Positions 11,206 to 64,000 of a stretch of DNA of 64,000 nucleotides are shown in pieces (position 1 is the first letter of the stretch; each line of letters opens with the position of its first letter). Made by a program: the position numbers and the translations under genes. A model generated the notes under the pieces. The model did not search any database, had not been told where the DNA came from, and saw nothing but the letters and a program-made list of their open reading frames with translations. Where the stretch lies: the NCBI RefSeq assembly GCF_002706375.1, contig NZ_CP017706.1, positions 1,922,001 through 1,986,000 on the forward strand. The letters run 5' to 3'. The DNA comes from Lactobacillus amylovorus DSM 20531. Lineage in GTDB: Bacteria; Bacillota; Bacilli; Lactobacillales; Lactobacillaceae.

Positions 11206-12188
11206 CCTTACTTTCCTTATTTAAAAATACAAATAATAATAATCCGCATACTTTAATTTGGAGTGAAGATGATTTTGTCAATGACTATCTCGCTAAGTCT
11301 TATGCTAAAGAGGATCAATTTAAAGACTGCGAACACGTAATTATCGACTGCGAAACGGATGGGCTAGACGAACTGATTGCTAGTTTGACTGAATCAAGTT
11401 TGTTTAGTGAACAAAAACTGATTATGGTTAAAAATCCATTCTTTTTGACAGCCAAAGTACCTAAAAAGTATCAAAAGCAAATCAATGACTTGATAAAGAT
11501 TTTTGAGAATTTGTCAGATTTAGAAGATACGATCGTAATTGTAGCTTCATATGAAAAACTGGATCGACGTAAAAAACTCACCAAGACTGTTTTAAAACAA
11601 TTCAACGTAGTAGAACCTAAAATCCGTTCTTATGAAGTAGGTGCAATTACTAAAGCACTGATTAAAGCAGAAGGTTACACAATTACGCAATCTGCTTTGC
11701 AGCTTCTGATTGAGCGCAGCGACCAAGTGATGGATACTGTGCTGAGCAATTATCAAAAATTGAAGATGACAGCTACTGATAACAAGATTACTGAAAAGTC
11801 CGTCATGCAAAATGTTGATTTGTCACTGGCACAAAATATTTTTGCAATTTTGGAATCAGCTCTTAATCGAAATTATCAAGAAGCAGTTGATCGATTGGAG
11901 AATCAATTACGAGAAGGAACGTCTCCAATTCAATTGCTGGCTGTCTTTGAAAATCAGCTTGAACTGTTGTTAGTAGTTAAAATTTTAGCTCAAAGAGGTC
12001 GCAGTGAGCCACAAATAGTTAAAGATTTAGGCGTTCACCCATATCGAGTTAAGTTGGCTTTGAAAAATAGGGTGAAGATTAGTAAATTAGAAAAATTGTT
12101 GCGGGATGCTATTGATTTGGAATTCAATTATAAGAATGGTACTTATCACGAAGATAATTTCTTGAAACTATTCGTTTTAAACGTGTAG
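11202..12188 (+). CDS. holA: DNA polymerase III delta subunit
   Basis: Clamp-loader subunit that opens the beta sliding clamp during replication. It is 328 residues, with the N-terminal nucleotide-binding-like fold (ending VIVASYEKLDRRKKLTKTVL) and a C-terminal helical collar domain. The ATGA overlap with comEC indicates cotranscription; comEC-holA-rpsT is the usual Firmicute order. Its natural terminator, shared with rpsT, has been split by the IS element that starts at 12219. Confidence 0.9.
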   Translation: MTLLSLFKNTNNNNPHTLIWSEDDFVNDYLAKSYAKEDQFKDCEHVIIDCETDGLDELIASLTESSLFSEQKLIMVKNPFFLTAKVPKKYQKQINDLIKIFENLSDLEDTIVIVASYEKLDRRKKLTKTVLKQFNVVEPKIRSYEVGAITKALIKAEGYTITQSALQLLIERSDQVMDTVLSNYQKLKMTATDNKITEKSVMQNVDLSLAQNIFAILESALNRNYQEAVDRLENQLREGTSPIQLLAVFENQLELLLVVKILAQRGRSEPQIVKDLGVHPYRVKLALKNRVKISKLEKLLRDAIDLEFNYKNGTYHEDNFLKLFVLNV

Positions 12189-12208
12189 AAAACAAAAAAA
12201 GAGAAAAG

Positions 12209-12218
12209 ATCATAATTT
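12209..12218 (+). repeat. Left target-site duplication of the first IS4-type element
   Basis: ATCATAATTT is repeated exactly at 13883-13892. A 10-bp duplication fits IS4-family transposition. It comes from the top of the former holA/rpsT terminator hairpin. Confidence 0.9.
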
Positions 12219-12264
12219 CAATGTCATTAAGTTAAGACATTGACAAATTATCGACTCAATTTTT

Positions 12265-12309
12265 AAGATCATTCATTTGCGATTTATCGCATTTGAATGA
12301 TCTTTTTTT
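12265..12309 (+). terminator. Inward-facing terminator inside left end of IS copy A
   Basis: AAGATCATTCA pairs with TGAATGATCTT, with TGCGAT/ATCGCA further up the stem; T-run to 12309. It would stop holA transcripts entering the element. Confidence 0.8.
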
Positions 12310-12340
12310 ATGTCAAACAAGCCCAAATCTTGTTTAGAAA

Positions 12341-13720
12341 TTAGGCTACACGATATAAATAATATACAGCTGATTTTGGTTTGAAATTTCTTTTGTCTTT
12401 TCGTCCTGGTCTGATTGGAATTGTGTAATGACCAATTTGAATAAGAATCTTTTTAAAGATTTTAGTTGAAGAAGAAATTATATACATAGCTTGGATGATA
12501 AAGCATGACTGTTTGAAATTAAGCGCATATTGATACTTGCAGTTTTTTTGTGGTATATATGCTTGAGCATCAATTTGACTGACTGCGTTAAACATAATCA
12601 TGTGGGCATAGATTTCCATTTCGATAAATTTATCCTGCTTGGAGTGAAACTGTACGCTTCCCAAAGCATATTTCAATTTTTTGAATGAAGTTTCAATACC
12701 CCAGCGCAAATGGTAGATTTCTTTGATCCTTTTTAAGGGATAATCGGCTCTATTTAGATTGGTTAGAACAACTTCCCATTCTTCTTTGCCTGATTTAGGA
12801 TCATTAATTCTAAATTTACAAGTGCGAAATTTTATTGTACATAACTCTCCAAAGTCCCAGCTGCCATCTTTGGTATTTTTAGACCGATATTTGATATATT
12901 GACGATAATGATGGTTAACAAGATGAACGTTTTCTGTGGCTTTATGGATTTCATAATAATAATTAGAGGTAGTCACCCAGCAAGCTATATCCTTATCACA
13001 CTCTTGATTAGGCAACTCAGCTATTTCCTTAAATGCGCCATATCCCGTTTTAGTACGTATGACATAATAACAGTTAGGCAGGCGATTACAATTTTCAATC
13101 ATGTTAAAGCCGGTATAACCTCGATCCATAGTAACTATATATGGTCCGCAATTTAGCTTTTTAAGCATTTGAACGGCGGCTTTACGTTCATCCATCTTTG
13201 ACTTAGGCTGAAAGATGCAGTCTTGATAAGTATTATTTAACAGGTCATAGAGTGCATTAACATGAATTTGGCAATATGGCTTTCCTTTATGATTGAGATT
13301 TCCAACAATATTCTCTGATTTAGGATTCCAGATTTGATTAAAATCAGACCCATCGATGGCAAATATACGATATTTATGATCAAATAACTGGATATTAAAC
13401 AAATTCTGATTAAATACGGTTAGAATATGCTTAAAACATGCGGGTGAAAGCTGACCTTTGCGTTGGACATAAGCGGAAGTACTGACTACTTTATCGTTAT
13501 TTTTAATAGCTTTTTGGCCAAAAGCTCTAAACAACTCACTGGTCAAATCTTTTCCTTGCATATTAATAGTAGTTTTAATGACTGTAGCTGCATCTAAAGA
13601 CCGCTTCCTAGTGAAGGCATGAGGATCATCGATAAAATCATGAATATGCTTTCCAGTATCATTGATAATTTGATCAAGACGATCTAAAATATTTTTATGA
13701 AGGGCTTTCATAATTAACAC
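12341..13720 (-). CDS. IS4-family DDE transposase (copy A)
   Basis: A 459-residue transposase of the IS4 superfamily. The catalytic residues are visible: first Asp in FAIDGSDFNQ, second Asp in TMDRGYTGF, and Glu in the YREK-type signature YHLRWGIETSFKKLK. It ends in the basic RPGRKDKRNFKPK segment. The reading frame is intact, so the element may be active. The outermost start is GTG at 13720; an ATG three codons later (13711) is equally possible because the ribosome binding site is weak. It is clearly related to the copy B transposase, but the two differ at many positions. Confidence 0.92.
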   Translation of the reverse strand: MLIMKALHKNILDRLDQIINDTGKHIHDFIDDPHAFTRKRSLDAATVIKTTINMQGKDLTSELFRAFGQKAIKNNDKVVSTSAYVQRKGQLSPACFKHILTVFNQNLFNIQLFDHKYRIFAIDGSDFNQIWNPKSENIVGNLNHKGKPYCQIHVNALYDLLNNTYQDCIFQPKSKMDERKAAVQMLKKLNCGPYIVTMDRGYTGFNMIENCNRLPNCYYVIRTKTGYGAFKEIAELPNQECDKDIACWVTTSNYYYEIHKATENVHLVNHHYRQYIKYRSKNTKDGSWDFGELCTIKFRTCKFRINDPKSGKEEWEVVLTNLNRADYPLKRIKEIYHLRWGIETSFKKLKYALGSVQFHSKQDKFIEMEIYAHMIMFNAVSQIDAQAYIPQKNCKYQYALNFKQSCFIIQAMYIISSSTKIFKKILIQIGHYTIPIRPGRKDKRNFKPKSAVYYLYRVA

Positions 13721-13802
13721 CAGCTTTCTGGCAATAGTTTTGAAGGTTTAATAATTTAATCAGAGGGCGAAAAGGTAGGGTTCTTTTCGCCTTTATTTTA
13801 TG

Positions 13803-13836
13803 CAAAAAAAGAACCAAATCATAATGATTCGGTTCT
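13803..13836 (-). terminator. Inward-facing terminator inside right end of IS copy A
   Basis: Read on the minus strand, AGAACCGAATCA pairs with TGATTTGGTTCT and is followed by T residues. It lies upstream of the transposase and would stop rpsT transcripts entering the element. Confidence 0.8.
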
Positions 13837-13882
13837 ACAGAGATTAGATTCAATTTGTCAATGTCTTAACTTAATGACATTG

Positions 13883-13892
13883 ATCATAATTT
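13883..13892 (+). repeat. Right target-site duplication of IS copy A
   Basis: Exact copy of ATCATAATTT at 12209-12218. Confidence 0.9.
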
Positions 13893-13930
13893 ATGACCTT
13901 CTCTCTTTTTTGATTAGTAATAAGTATTAA

Positions 13931-14188
13931 TTACTTGTTTGCTAATTTGTTTAAACGACTCTTGTCACGAGCAGCCTTGTTCTTGTGGATTAAGCCTTTT
14001 GAAGCAGCCTTGTCCAAAGCGCGAACAGCTTCTAAATGCAACTTGGAGACGTCTTCTTTACTATCAGTTTCAACAGCGTTCTTGAATTTCTTAACAGCAG
14101 TTCTTAACTTGCTTAATTCAGAAGCGTTACGTTCTTTAGCAGCGTTTTGCGTCTTAACACGTTTAATAGCTGATTTGATTTGTGGCAT
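13931..14188 (-). CDS. rpsT: 30S ribosomal protein S20
   Basis: Small-subunit protein that binds 16S rRNA. The 85 residues begin [20 protein letters not shown] and are rich in Lys and Ala. The ATG at 14188 is used because GGAGGTGA lies just upstream; a TTG five codons earlier overlaps that site. The gene is convergent with holA and has lost its native terminator structure to the IS inserted 39 nt past its stop codon. Confidence 0.95.
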
Positions 14189-14299
14189 GAAATTCACCTC
14201 CAATGATTTAGAAATTTACTTCATACATTATACTTAAGAAGCATCTTTGATGCAAGGTAATTTATGCTTGCTTTTTGAAAAAATAATGTGTATCATAAT

Positions 14300-14387
14300 T
14301 TTCGTGAACCATTAACGCTGTTTATTTGCTCACGCCGACGATAAACGTTGTTAGTGGCAATTATTTATATGAAAGGTGAAATTTTTT
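14300..14387 (+). promoter_or_regulatory. Structured leader of rpsO, probable S15 autoregulation site
   Basis: The rpsO leader can form nested, competing pairings: CGTGA with TCACG, and AACG...TTTAT with ATAAACGTT, then CCA/TGG outer pairing. S15 is known to repress its own mRNA through leader structures in several bacteria. Which structure is used here is inference. A possible promoter (TTGCTT, 17 nt, TATCAT) lies at 14268-14296. Confidence 0.45.
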
Positions 14388-59827: not shown

Positions 59828-60316
59828 ATGATCAACGCAATTATTAAAAATAGAAGAGCAGTTAGAAAATTTACTGCAGATTCTGTATCAGCTGATGAAA
59901 TTAAAAATTTAATTGAGTCTTTTCAAACTTCACCTTGTGGCATGCATCAACCAGATGTAATGAATTTGGTAGTTGTTAAAGATAAAGGATTAAGAAATGA
60001 AATCGAAAAAGCAACAGGCGATGCTTGTTATAATGCACCAGTTTTATTCTTACTTAATACTAAAAAGGGCAACATGTTTGGTGAACGTGATGCATCTGCC
60101 GCAGCTGAAAATATTATGCTAGAAGCAACCGACTTAGGTTTAGGTTCAGTTTATGTCATGGGTGGTGCCGTAAAGTTGAATGATTATGCTGACATTCAAA
60201 AAGAATTAGGTATTGCTAGTGATTTCCAAACAACAGTAATTGTTCCTGTAGGCAAGATTGCTGAAGAACCAGCAAAGGAAGATCGAGCTAACCGTTATCA
60301 AGTAACTATTTATTAA
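59828..60316 (+). CDS. Nitroreductase family protein
   Basis: 162-residue FMN-dependent oxidoreductase: N-terminal INAIIKNRRAVRKFT (flavin-phosphate Arg region) and C-terminal GLGSVYVMGGAVKLN with the PVGKIAEEPAKEDR segment. At 162 residues it is at the short end of the family. Preceded by GAGGAG. The substrate is unknown. The lipoprotein remnant follows 9 nt later. Confidence 0.88.
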   Translation: MINAIIKNRRAVRKFTADSVSADEIKNLIESFQTSPCGMHQPDVMNLVVVKDKGLRNEIEKATGDACYNAPVLFLLNTKKGNMFGERDASAAAENIMLEATDLGLGSVYVMGGAVKLNDYADIQKELGIASDFQTTVIVPVGKIAEEPAKEDRANRYQVTIY

Positions 60317-60325
60317 GGAAAATCT

Positions 60326-61001
60326 ATGAATAAAAAACTTTTACTTGGATTGTCTGCTATTATGCTGGCGACAACTTTGACTGGTTGTAGTCAGGTTCAT
60401 TTTGGCAGGGATGCAGTTACTATTGGTACTGAGAAAAAGGCGAAACCTAAAGTAGAGCATAAGAAAGATCAGGTTGCTAAGAAACAAAAAGCAGCAAGTA
60501 GCAGTAGCAAAAAGTCAGTTAAAAAACTACTAAGAAAGTTGAAAAGACTAAAGATAAAAAGGCAAAAGATAAGAATAAAAAGAAAAAGTCCAAATCAAAA
60601 ACTAAAAAGATAGTTAAAACTAACTGAAATAAACCAAAACTAAAAAACTGCAAGCTGCAGTAAATCATCTGGTCAAACTTATCGTTTCTACGATGGTATT
60701 CATCTTTTAAAGACTAAAAAGGGCGATACTTATCCGCAAGCTTTTACGCAAGCAAGATTTGTCTTGAAGAAAAAGCCAATCAAGATCGGTTGGAGTCCTT
60801 TAGGTAAAAATAAGTACCAATACAATGTTGTGCAATTGCTAATGATAACTTTAAATCTTGGCATAATACTTATTTATTCTGTTTAAAGAATAAGAAACCC
60901 GTAATTTTACTTGATCAGTCAAAAAAGGTGGAGTTGTAGTAGTTAAACAAGTTAATGATGCCACTTTAATTAAAGGCTTTAAAAAAGCTTATCAAAAATA
61001 A
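60326..61001 (+). pseudogene. Lipoprotein, decayed by multiple frameshifts
   Basis: Intact lipoprotein signal peptide with lipobox (LLLGLSAIMLATTLTGC) and a Lys-rich linker. After about residue 66 the frame shifts (KKSVKK to TTKKVEKTKDK), a TGA follows near 60626, and later fragments in other frames read SCSKSSGQTYRFYDGIHLLK, FVLKKKPIKIGWSPLGK and GGVVVVKQVNDATLIKGFKK to a TAA at 60999. At least three frame changes are needed. Direct evidence for decay; function unknown. Confidence 0.8.
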
Positions 61002-61033
61002 ATCAGTTTAAAGATGAAACAAAAAAGCATGTA

Positions 61034-61043
61034 GAAATTAATC
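61034..61043 (+). repeat. Left target-site duplication of IS copy B
   Basis: GAAATTAATC, repeated exactly at 62703-62712. It comprises the loop and closing base pair of the former eno terminator. Confidence 0.9.
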
Positions 61044-61090
61044 CAATGTCATTAAGTTAAGACATTGACTAATCTGATGACACTTTTTGA

Positions 61091-61131
61091 GACATTTATC
61101 GAATTATTTTATTTGATAAATGTCTTTTTTT
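61091..61131 (+). terminator. Inward-facing terminator inside left end of IS copy B
   Basis: GACATTTATC (61091-61100) pairs with GATAAATGTC (61115-61124), then seven T residues. Different sequence from the copy A hairpin but same position and direction. Confidence 0.82.
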
Positions 61132-61174
61132 GATAGCACAAATAAGCCATCTTAAGATAGCCGTTTAAATTAGT

Positions 61175-62545
61175 TCAAGCTGCTAGACGATAAGGAAAGC
61201 CAACTACTAATTTAACTTTTAGATTTCGTTTATCTTTTCTTCCTGGTCGAATGGGCGTTAAATAAAATGCCACATCTAGCAGTAATTGTGTGAAGTTTTT
61301 ATCTGAATTATCACTTATACTAAAATATCGTCGCCAGATACAACAGGCCATTTTAAAATCTATTTGATATTGATATTTTCCCTGAGTATACGGTTTTGAG
61401 CTCGCAATTATTGATAAACTCACGGCATTATACATTGCAAAATGGGCGTATATTTCCATATAAACAAATTGATCTTTTTTAGAATGAAACTGTATGCCGC
61501 TTAAGTCATATTTAAGCTCCCTAAAAGAAGTTTCTATTCCCCAGCGAAGATGATAGATCTCTTTCATTCTAGCTAGAGGATATTCATTTCGATCTAAATT
61601 GGTGATGAGGACTTCCCACTCATCGTCTGAACCTGGTGGATTGATTCTAAACTTACAAACTCTAAATCTAACATCACACATATCCTCAAAATCCCAGCGT
61701 TGATCTCTGGTATTTTTAGAACGAACAGCTTTATAGTGATGCTTTTTGTGAAGAATCAGGTGAAGAAACTTTTCTGTATCTTTATGGGTGACATAATAAT
61801 AATGTGACGAAGTTACTCTGCATGATAAGTCAATATCGTATTCATGATTCGACATAGCTACAATTTCTTTAAAAGCACCATCTCCGGATTTTGATCGCAT
61901 AACATAGTGGCAATGTTTTAATCGATTGCAATTTTCAATTAAATTAAAGCTAATGTAGCCACGATCCATCAGGACTAGAAAATCTTTTTCTTGCTGGGCT
62001 AATTTCTTTATCATGGTTAAAGCTGCCTCACGTTCATCCATTTTTTGTCTAGGTTGGATAACCATGTCTAAATATAATTTATTCAAAACATCATAAAAAG
62101 CGTTTACATGTATCTGGCAATATTTTCTACCATCTTTGCCTTGAAAAATATTCTTTGATTTTGGATTAAAAGGCTGATCAAAATCGGAACCATCAATCGC
62201 TACAACTAAGTATTTGTCATCTAGTAATTGCGGTGCATTGTTTGCCTGACTAAGCTCAGCCATAATTTCTTTAAAGCATTCAGGCTTTAATTTAGCCTTT
62301 TGTTGTTCAAAAGCCGAAGCAGTCATTCTAGAATTTATGTCAGGAAAAGCATGAAAAATTTCCGAATTCAGGCTGCCAGCTCCCATGTTAAGAATTAACT
62401 TAATCAAATCAGTGGAATTGAGCTTACGACAGCGAGTAAAAGCTTGATCAGATACAGAGAAATCGTGAATGTTGTCAGCGATTTTATTGATAATACTATC
62501 CATCAGCTTTAAAATATTTGAGTGAAGGGATTTCATAAGAGGCAC
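61175..62545 (-). CDS. IS4-family DDE transposase (copy B)
   Basis: 456 residues, intact. Catalytic context: AIDGSDFDQPF, LMDRGYISFN and YHLRWGIETSFRELKY. The C-terminal RPGRKDKRNLKVK tail matches copy A. The two transposases are clearly homologous but differ widely through their length, so the copies are different IS types or long-separated. The outer start is GTG at 62545; ATG at 62536 is possible. Confidence 0.92.
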   Translation of the reverse strand: MPLMKSLHSNILKLMDSIINKIADNIHDFSVSDQAFTRCRKLNSTDLIKLILNMGAGSLNSEIFHAFPDINSRMTASAFEQQKAKLKPECFKEIMAELSQANNAPQLLDDKYLVVAIDGSDFDQPFNPKSKNIFQGKDGRKYCQIHVNAFYDVLNKLYLDMVIQPRQKMDEREAALTMIKKLAQQEKDFLVLMDRGYISFNLIENCNRLKHCHYVMRSKSGDGAFKEIVAMSNHEYDIDLSCRVTSSHYYYVTHKDTEKFLHLILHKKHHYKAVRSKNTRDQRWDFEDMCDVRFRVCKFRINPPGSDDEWEVLITNLDRNEYPLARMKEIYHLRWGIETSFRELKYDLSGIQFHSKKDQFVYMEIYAHFAMYNAVSLSIIASSKPYTQGKYQYQIDFKMACCIWRRYFSISDNSDKNFTQLLLDVAFYLTPIRPGRKDKRNLKVKLVVGFPYRLAA

Positions 62546-62624
62546 AGCTTTCTATGAAAGACCAGATAATATGACGAAAGTGAGCAGAAGGGCAAATAAA
62601 CTCTGCTTACTTTTTATTTTAAAA

Positions 62625-62658
62625 AGAAAAAAGACCGAATCAAAATGATTCGATCTTT
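62625..62658 (-). terminator. Inward-facing terminator inside right end of IS copy B
   Basis: Minus strand: AAGATCGAATCA pairs with TGATTCGGTCTT and a T-run follows; it would stop eno transcripts entering the element. Confidence 0.8.
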
Positions 62659-62702
62659 AAAAGCTGTCGATATAATGTCAATGTCTTAACTTAATGACAT
62701 TG

Positions 62703-62712
62703 GAAATTAATC
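62703..62712 (+). repeat. Right target-site duplication of IS copy B
   Basis: Exact copy of GAAATTAATC at 61034-61043. Confidence 0.9.
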
Positions 62713-62751
62713 TACATGCTTTTTGTTGAAATTGTACTCGGTTAATCGAAA

Positions 62752-64000
62752 TTAATCGTGGTCAACATCATCTGGGAAGAATGCAAGACGTTCGCCCTTG
62801 CCAAGTTCTTCTTCGATTTCAAGCAAACGGTTGTACTTTTCAACACGTTCTGAACGAGCTGGAGCACCAGTCTTAAGTTGACCACCGTTGATAGCAACAG
62901 CCAAGTCAGCGATGAAGGTGTCACCAGTTTCACCTGAACGGTGAGAAATCATAGTGTTGTAGCCGTTCTTACGTGACATACGGATAGTTTCAAGAGTTTC
63001 AGTAACAGTACCGATTTGGTTCAACTTGATTAATGAAGCGTTGCCGGCACCTTCCTTGATGGCCTTCTTCAAAAGTGCTGGGTTAGTACAAATGAAGTCG
63101 TCAAGAACGATTTGGATACGGTCCTTGTGTGATTGAGTGAACTTAACCATACCTTCAACATCGTTTTCGTCATATGGGTCTTCCATTGACATTAATTCTG
63201 GGAATTCGTCCAAAAGCTTGTCATAGTATGCAGCTAATTCTTCATCGTCAAGAACCTTGCCTTCAAGGTGGTACTTGCCGTCTTCTTTGTTGTAGAAGTA
63301 TGAAGCAGCACAGTCACATGCAATACCGATATCTTCGCCAGGCTTGTAACCAGCCTTAACGATTGATTCGTGTAAAGCCTTCAAAGCTTCTTCTGAGTTC
63401 TTCATGTTAGGTGCGAAACCACCTTCGTCACCCAAGCCAGTTTCGTAACCCATGTCTTCAAGAACTTTCTTCAAAGTGTGGTATACGTTAACGATCTTTT
63501 CGAAACCATCACGGAATGAAGTCTTAGCAATTGGAGTGATCATGAATTCTTGGATGTCGATACCGTTGTCAGCGTGTTCACCACCGTTGATAACGTTGTG
63601 GAAAGTTTGTGGCATTTCAAGATCAATACCGCCAAGGTAACGGTAAAGAGGTTGGTGGTTAGCCTTAGCTGCAGCAACAGCAGTAGCCATTGATACACCT
63701 AAGATAGCGTTAGCACCAAGACGACCCTTGTTTGGAGTACCGTCTAAGTCGATCATAGTTTGGTCAATCTTAGCTTGGTCAAATGGGTCCATACCCTTTA
63801 AAGCGTCGTTGATTTCAGTGTTAACATTGTTAACAGCCTTTGAAACGCCCTTACCACCAAGACGTGAACCACCGTCACGTAATTCAACGGCTTCGTTTTC
63901 ACCAGTTGAAGCACCTGATGGAACTTCAGCCTTACCTACGACACCGTTTGAAAGGGTAACGTGAACTTCAACAGTTGGGTTACCACGTGAGTCAAAAATT
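62752..64000 (-). CDS. eno: Enolase (partial, N-terminus outside window)
   Basis: Glycolytic 2-phosphoglycerate dehydratase. The sequence runs from IFDSRGNPTVEVHVT at the right edge, probably missing about a dozen residues, through SGASTGENEAVELRDG, the metal-binding VLDDFICTN and SLIKLNQIGTVTETL, to the catalytic SHRSGETGDTFIADLAV and the C-terminus GKGERLAFFPDDVDHD. Codon use is strongly biased as for highly expressed genes. Its terminator was split by IS copy B 40 nt past the stop. Confidence 0.96.
   Translation of the reverse strand, partial: IFDSRGNPTVEVHVTLSNGVVGKAEVPSGASTGENEAVELRDGGSRLGGKGVSKAVNNVNTEINDALKGMDPFDQAKIDQTMIDLDGTPNKGRLGANAILGVSMATAVAAAKANHQPLYRYLGGIDLEMPQTFHNVINGGEHADNGIDIQEFMITPIAKTSFRDGFEKIVNVYHTLKKVLEDMGYETGLGDEGGFAPNMKNSEEALKALHESIVKAGYKPGEDIGIACDCAASYFYNKEDGKYHLEGKVLDDEELAAYYDKLLDEFPELMSMEDPYDENDVEGMVKFTQSHKDRIQIVLDDFICTNPALLKKAIKEGAGNASLIKLNQIGTVTETLETIRMSRKNGYNTMISHRSGETGDTFIADLAVAINGGQLKTGAPARSERVEKYNRLLEIEEELGKGERLAFFPDDVDHD

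Follow-up and report, generated by a model that had tools for sequence, protein, structure and literature searches.

The insertion sequence (IS) IS200 of Salmonella carries an inward-facing intrinsic terminator against read-through from upstream genes, and a second hairpin masks its start site (PMC2515195, PMC3196728). The available portions of these papers describe one inward terminator and do not mention terminator targeting. Insertion at terminators is known from IS1272 and TnSha1 (IS1182 family), which insert at hairpins that share no primary sequence consensus and are in many cases terminators; the insertion is blunt, part of the stem is deleted and no target duplication arises (PMC4923244). 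Replacement terminators go unmentioned in the accessible part of that paper. In Streptococcus pneumoniae, the interspersed, terminator-like SPRITE repeats lie near gene 3' ends and were suggested to act as host terminators; SPRITE is a short repeat, and the breaking of terminators is not mentioned in the available text (PMC3049150). For the IS4 family, a survey reported strong target-arm specificity for some members of the IS4 subgroup, and the word 'terminator' is absent from its main text as far as this was available (PMC2266710). Among the matches listed from the open-licence literature, no IS was found that joins terminator targeting to inward terminators, or that has inward terminators at both ends. 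Here, an IS4-family lineage is described that probably breaks host terminators and supplies inward replacements, named T5 and T3. The original prediction, made for two copies in one stretch of Lactobacillus DNA, held that no described IS was known to have this combination. Within the open-licence literature this stood, although, from what the available portions of the cited papers state, an inward terminator is known from IS200 and terminator targeting from IS1272. In that literature the combination is new, and it is built from known parts.

The window, i.e., the whole stretch of 64,000 nucleotides from Lactobacillus amylovorus DSM 20531 that was analyzed, contains two copies of the element. 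Copy A (1664 bp; 12219..13882) has the terminal repeats CAATGTCATTAAGTTAAGACATTGAC, and the target-duplication test gave a 10-bp duplication on its left (ATCATAATTT; 12209..12218) and on its right (13883..13892). It lies between the convergent genes holA (DNA polymerase III delta, TIGR01128; 11202..12188, plus strand) and rpsT (ribosomal protein S20, TIGR00029; 13934..14188, minus strand), both of which are transcribed towards it. Copy B (1659 bp; 61044..62702, minus strand) belongs to the same family, shares the terminal repeat CAATGTCATTAAGTTAAGACATTGAC with copy A and, by the same test, is bordered by the 10-bp duplication GAAATTAATC on the left (61034..61043) and its counterpart on the right (62703..62712). 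It lies beyond the eno (enolase, TIGR01060) open frame (62752..63792, minus strand), which is transcribed towards it. Each copy has a single open reading frame on the minus strand, encoding transposases of 459 amino acids (A; 12341..13720) and 456 amino acids (B; 61175..62545) that are 51% identical. Near copy B, a 162-amino-acid frame (59828-60316, plus strand) matched nitroreductase well under the equivalog cut-offs and is perhaps a gene remnant.

Both transposases are of the IS4-family DDE type (PF01609; NF033592 transpos_IS4_1 with 148.3 and 156.8 bits against a cut-off of 115) and contain the Y-(2)-R-(3)-E-(6)-K (YREK) motif (YHLRWGIETSFKKLK and YHLRWGIETSFRELK). One reading frame of 456-459 amino acids and duplications of about one helix turn agree with this family. 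The IS200 transposase is unrelated to the IS4 type, and IS200/IS605 elements have a HUH (Y1) transposase and lack terminal inverted repeats. The elements described here differ from these in having a DDE transposase and terminal inverted repeats, and from IS1272-type insertions in having a 9-11 bp duplication and complete stem halves. By inspection against Table 1 of the IS4-family survey, as far as it was available, the outer repeat CAATGTCATTAAGTTAAG matched all seven positions of the IS4-subgroup ends (-AATR--------WTW----); the direct repeats of that subgroup are 10-13 bp long, compared to 9-11 bp, mostly 10 bp, in the elements here, and its typical size of 1400-1650 bp is slightly exceeded by the copies of this genome, with 1655-1664 bp (PMC2266710). 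The ends of the IS231 subgroup (CAT-------AA--TAA---) were matched at seven of eight positions, the third base here being A instead of T; by the available part of the same source, size and duplication length also fit that subgroup (PMC2266710).

For the analysis of the ends, T5 denotes the right-hand hairpin, upstream of the transposase gene and facing in its sense direction, and T3 the left-hand hairpin, downstream of the gene and facing in the antisense direction. Hairpin and U-tract were scored with a linear, d'Aubenton-Carafa-type formula in which d > 0 was taken as a terminator. In copy A, T3 (12267..12309, plus strand; hairpin 12267-12302, then T7) faces transcripts from holA, with d = 37.1 and dG -18.7, and T5 (13804..13835, minus strand; hairpin 13811-13835, T7 at 13804-13810) faces those from rpsT, with d = 29.3 and dG -12.1. 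In copy B, T3 (61091..61131, plus strand; hairpin 61091-61124, then T7) reached d = 24.9 (dG -14.6), and T5 (62627..62655, minus strand; hairpin 62633-62655, T6 at 62627-62632), which faces transcripts from eno, reached d = 35.8 (dG -10.7). Thus, all four hairpins were found at the positions and in the directions originally claimed, each directly followed by 6-7 T. The left hairpin of copy A was missed by a simple consensus scan and recovered as a 19-nt inverted repeat. T3, T5 and a third hairpin, T2, were the sole terminators with d > 0 in 11900-14300 and 60700-62900. The inventory of two terminators per copy was therefore incomplete, since each copy also has this third, antisense terminator-like hairpin. 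The hairpins of the family are not one-way throughout: T5 of L086, L089 and L116 and T3 of L077 and L093 were also positive when reversed.

The genome of the window (2.17 Mb, one contig) gave 20 transposase matches and 19 copies with both ends, which fell into six nucleotide groups. Relatives were drawn from genomes of the same family and order and from plasmids; the outer 18 bp of the terminal repeat were recognizable down to about 30% transposase identity. Dereplication of 40 upstream and 42 downstream ends at a similarity of 0.92 left 20 and 22, respectively; L143, whose ends are uncertain, was omitted. As in IS200, a terminator-like hairpin faces inward between the element end and the transposase gene: T5 was positive in 19 of the 20 upstream ends, compared to 12 of 500 dinucleotide shuffles. 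T3 was positive in 20 of the 22 downstream ends (shuffles, 9/550). Since the copies are related, these counts of ends and copies are not independent. Among the elements present in both end sets, 14 of 16 had both hairpins, the exceptions being L115, which failed by score at both ends, and IS1675 (L116), which failed for T3. When the terminal repeat was used to find further ends in six more genomes of the order, 15 of 16 assessable ends, many of them repeated copies, were positive inward, and one scored -6.1; in another five, from G591, a contig end truncated the sequence, and these lie outside this count. Transposase homology was present at L123, L136 and L141 of these loci, and none was seen at L137 and L138 with the queries used. 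The upstream hairpins of L093 (G197) and L123 (G445) start where the terminal repeat ends on its inner side, and they bear no resemblance to those of Lactobacillus.

For comparison within the genome, the 150 nt flanking the gene on each side were scored identically for the family and for other transposases. T5 and T3 were both present in all 16 family copies with an intact frame (3 of the 19 have a broken frame and were omitted). In comparison, none of the 48 scored copies of other transposases, representing 12 types, had both; singly, T5 occurred in 2 and T3 in 3 of the 12 types. These 48 are the full-size non-family loci from 89 matches after omission of family members, short fragments, duplicates and matches without a locus, and two of them (L214, L218) are below the Pfam cut-off. 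Of 16 controls from two Lactobacillus crispatus plasmids and one Lactococcus plasmid, one, a lone TnpB, had both hairpins; three had T5 and one had T3. L122:34405-35271, a fragment of the studied family, was left out of this set.

The target sites were then compared. Of the 19 copies in this genome, 17 have target duplications of 9-11 bp (10 bp in 12, 9 bp in three, 11 bp in two). Reconstruction of the empty site for the 17 cleanly duplicated cases gave a terminator spanning the duplication in 16. The background was 516 of 9507 intergenic and 18 of 1873 random positions of the window, which gave nominal Fisher values, calculated over overlapping positions, of 1e-19 and 3e-29, respectively. The site count covers loci with both ends; 14 copies without a clean duplication were excluded, and single-ended loci and repeat fetches of one place are outside it. 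The exception, L060 (G000:C1:1050679-1052336), disrupts a reading frame that encodes an SlpA-type surface-layer domain; therefore, terminator targeting is not absolute. Among both-ended loci elsewhere, the site was a terminator in 5 of 9 cases from other Lactobacillus and relatives, in 3 of 3 from G181 and in 3 of 3 from G197. In G007, another genome of this genus, nothing interrupts the rpsT/holA and eno sites, and each has a two-way terminator, with scores of 44.7/42.1 and 32.1/28.6, respectively. After insertion, none of the 17 sites kept a terminator for incoming transcripts at either junction, one kept an outward one, and T5 and T3 were positive at all 17. Median scores were 32.3 for the empty site in its better direction, 29.3 for T5 and 24.9 for T3; what is destroyed and what is supplied are thus of about the same strength by score. 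The claim that these insertions break a terminator and bring their own was supported for most of them by these comparisons. Two copies without target duplications, L054 and L055 (G000:C1, about 564 kb and 577 kb), lie about 11 kb apart, and their left flanks resemble two halves of one terminator, which suggests recombination between copies with inversion; their flanks recur in L074/L078.

A sister branch with a different target allows the purpose of the inward hairpins to be considered. IS1675 from Lactococcus and four close Enterococcus elements (L144, L145, L146, L152) share with the elements described here the outer terminal repeat CAATGTCATTAAGTTAAG, the 10-bp duplication and, where the end was found, T5; full-length transposases are 31-34% identical. 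They differ in that a palindrome around GGGTATACCC is preferred as the target, that T3 is absent (best score -18.4 or lower, or no candidate, in all five) and that T5 scores equally well or better outward. Their T5 was weak to moderate, with scores of 4.5-13.4 in four of the five for which the upstream end was found. Sites were positive as terminators in 0 of 6 cases for IS1675 and 1 of 2 for Enterococcus, the positive one being a strong terminator (d = 41.6) at L146, an element without T3. In the tree, this branch forms one clade (100/100) beside L093 (G197; 3/3 terminator sites), with long branches in this part; L082, L141 and L143 were labelled 'terminator-targeting' provisionally. The insertion site that L116, L144 and L146-L152 have in common is a plasmid palindrome close to CCAACAGGGTATACCCTGTTGG.

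It is plausible, if not the favored view, that the inward terminators serve the element alone, as in IS200, with T5 blocking external activation and T3 blocking interference with the transposase; help for the neighbors would then be a by-product, and terminators would be hit for their inverted-repeat form instead of their safety. The inward terminator of IS200 has such a role according to the available parts of its descriptions (PMC2515195, PMC3196728). The target has the form of an inverted repeat in both branches, and the target in the IS1675/Enterococcus branch is usually no terminator (1 of 8 sites with d > 0), yet T5 is positive in the four elements for which an upstream end was found, which would be expected of a T5 with a role in self-control. 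Against this stands T3, which is present in 20 of 22 ends overall and absent from IS1675, L144, L145, L146 and L152, i.e., from the branch that prefers another target. Therefore, replacement of the broken terminator fits better than self-control, although this is one evolutionary contrast. The contrast fits a need for T3 where a terminator has been broken, as a single event with one counter-example site (L146). Either the host neighbors or transposase control may be the benefit that drives selection.

The third hairpin, T2, lies in the transposase leader just inside T5 and is antisense terminator-like, at 13766..13791 in copy A (plus strand, d = 19.6) and at 62580..62610 in copy B (plus strand, d = 16.2, tail TTTTTATTTT). 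In copy A, its T-rich tail overlaps a TAAAAT promoter-like box, the U-tract of T2 being the complement of this box. T2 was positive in 19 of 20 dereplicated upstream ends, compared to 2 of 500 shuffles; in 16 of the 20, it is a separate leader hairpin, and in three (L086, L089, L116) it is T5 reversed. T2-like hairpins were common upstream of other transposases as well, i.e., in 5 of 12 types of this genome and in 7 of 16 plasmid controls; T2 is therefore not special and was rejected as a distinguishing trait of the family. The TAAAAT-like box, which directly follows the T5 U-tract in 15 aligned members, and the position of T2 at the likely mRNA start might indicate that the upstream hairpins serve chiefly as structures of the leader or promoter, such as an mRNA 5' hairpin or a mask over the ribosome site, and not as terminators. 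This appears improbable, since T5 lies upstream of the box and would be excluded from a transcript starting there, and T2 is more stable as antisense RNA (stronger in 10 and weaker in 3 of 16). A strong terminator for the transposase transcript itself, i.e., in the outward sense direction at the downstream end, was positive in 2 of 22 ends, both being the T3 hairpin reversed. Just after the stop codon, about 100 nt from the downstream end, a weak hairpin in transposase sense is followed by a CTTATTTG-like sequence (e.g., 61145-61162, minus strand, in the window); it recurs with low scores in many members, as far as G197 (L093), and may weakly terminate the transposase mRNA. Within the terminal repeat, the inner palindrome (CAATGTC..GACATTG) was considered as a hairpin of its own and rejected: relatives show GCACTTG, GCTATTG or GAGAGCTTG instead, and since this inner half varies, it is not a conserved structure.

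By permissive single-linkage, the T3 hairpins formed eight and the T5 hairpins six sequence classes, mostly at a similar distance from the end. Hairpin sequences have been replaced by unrelated ones, with position, direction and U-tract kept. Of the 11 pairs in the 15 alignable T5 sequences, 6 vary in both partners. These both-side changes and the covariation score were reached by none of 500 shuffles, which ignore relatedness; further pair types, one of five covariation measures, were not above shuffles (204/500). A single covariation count for T3 was abandoned because the T3 hairpins do not align. In mirror pairs, G.U exceeded A.C on the predicted RNA strand for T3 (30:1), T5 (13:3) and T2 (22:6), a bias that is supportive only, since selecting hairpins by their predicted strand favors G.U, and the copies are related. 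The original prediction of selection on hairpin function was supported by the turnover at a fixed position, direction and U-tract and by the covarying upstream stem. These data support the view that the hairpins are kept by function. In L079 (Lactobacillus xujianguonis), the T5 and T3 sequences are almost the same, which gives the impression that one end is a copy of the other; such copying is a possible route for hairpin turnover. The position near the ends and its conservation would also suit a role as DNA, in which subterminal inverted repeats are bound by the transposase or extruded as cruciforms, but this is very unlikely, as the T5 sequence of an element is usually not that of its T3, hairpin classes are unrelated between relatives despite the conserved outer terminal repeat, U-tracts are mostly one-sided and base-pair changes favor one RNA strand.

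The DNA itself shows the hairpins with their U-tracts and the fact that these are conserved, turn over, covary and are biased to one strand; it also shows which targets are chosen and that the target terminator is lost. In the proposed break-and-replace mechanism, host intrinsic terminators would be entered at the loop or in the upper part of the stem, with a duplication of about 10 bp, by the Lactobacillus branch and by elements of no fewer than two further genera (G181, G197). The insertion would part the host hairpin into two halves, and because these are then 1.66 kb apart, transcripts from neither side would still meet the host terminator. In the main clade, T5 lies about 40-75 nt inside the upstream end; it would stop transcripts in sense direction, such as those from rpsT and eno, and T3, about 40-86 nt inside the downstream end, would stop those in antisense direction, such as those from holA; T2 may stop antisense RNA that escapes T3. 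With the TAAAAT-like box behind the U-tract of T5, the transposase would be transcribed from within the insulated interval. We infer that T5 and T3 terminate transcription; the neighbors would then stay insulated and the insertions be nearly neutral, and the transposase would be kept free of read-through in sense and antisense. It is proposed with moderate confidence that the lineage seeks shared host terminators, destroys them and restores two-sided termination, and that its own terminators evolve by wholesale hairpin replacement with function kept, the antisense one having been lost in the branch with another target. As two inward terminators would restore termination, insertions beside highly expressed or essential genes such as rpsT, holA and eno would therefore cost little.

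This reading offers an answer to how 19 both-ended copies in a 2.17-Mb genome may sit by essential genes without disturbance. It would link target choice and regulation within one small element, for which the sister branch with another target and without T3 offers a natural test, and it yields natural terminators. Moreover, it suggests that expression can stay almost the same when an IS inserts, a point of importance wherever such insertions are interpreted as mutations.
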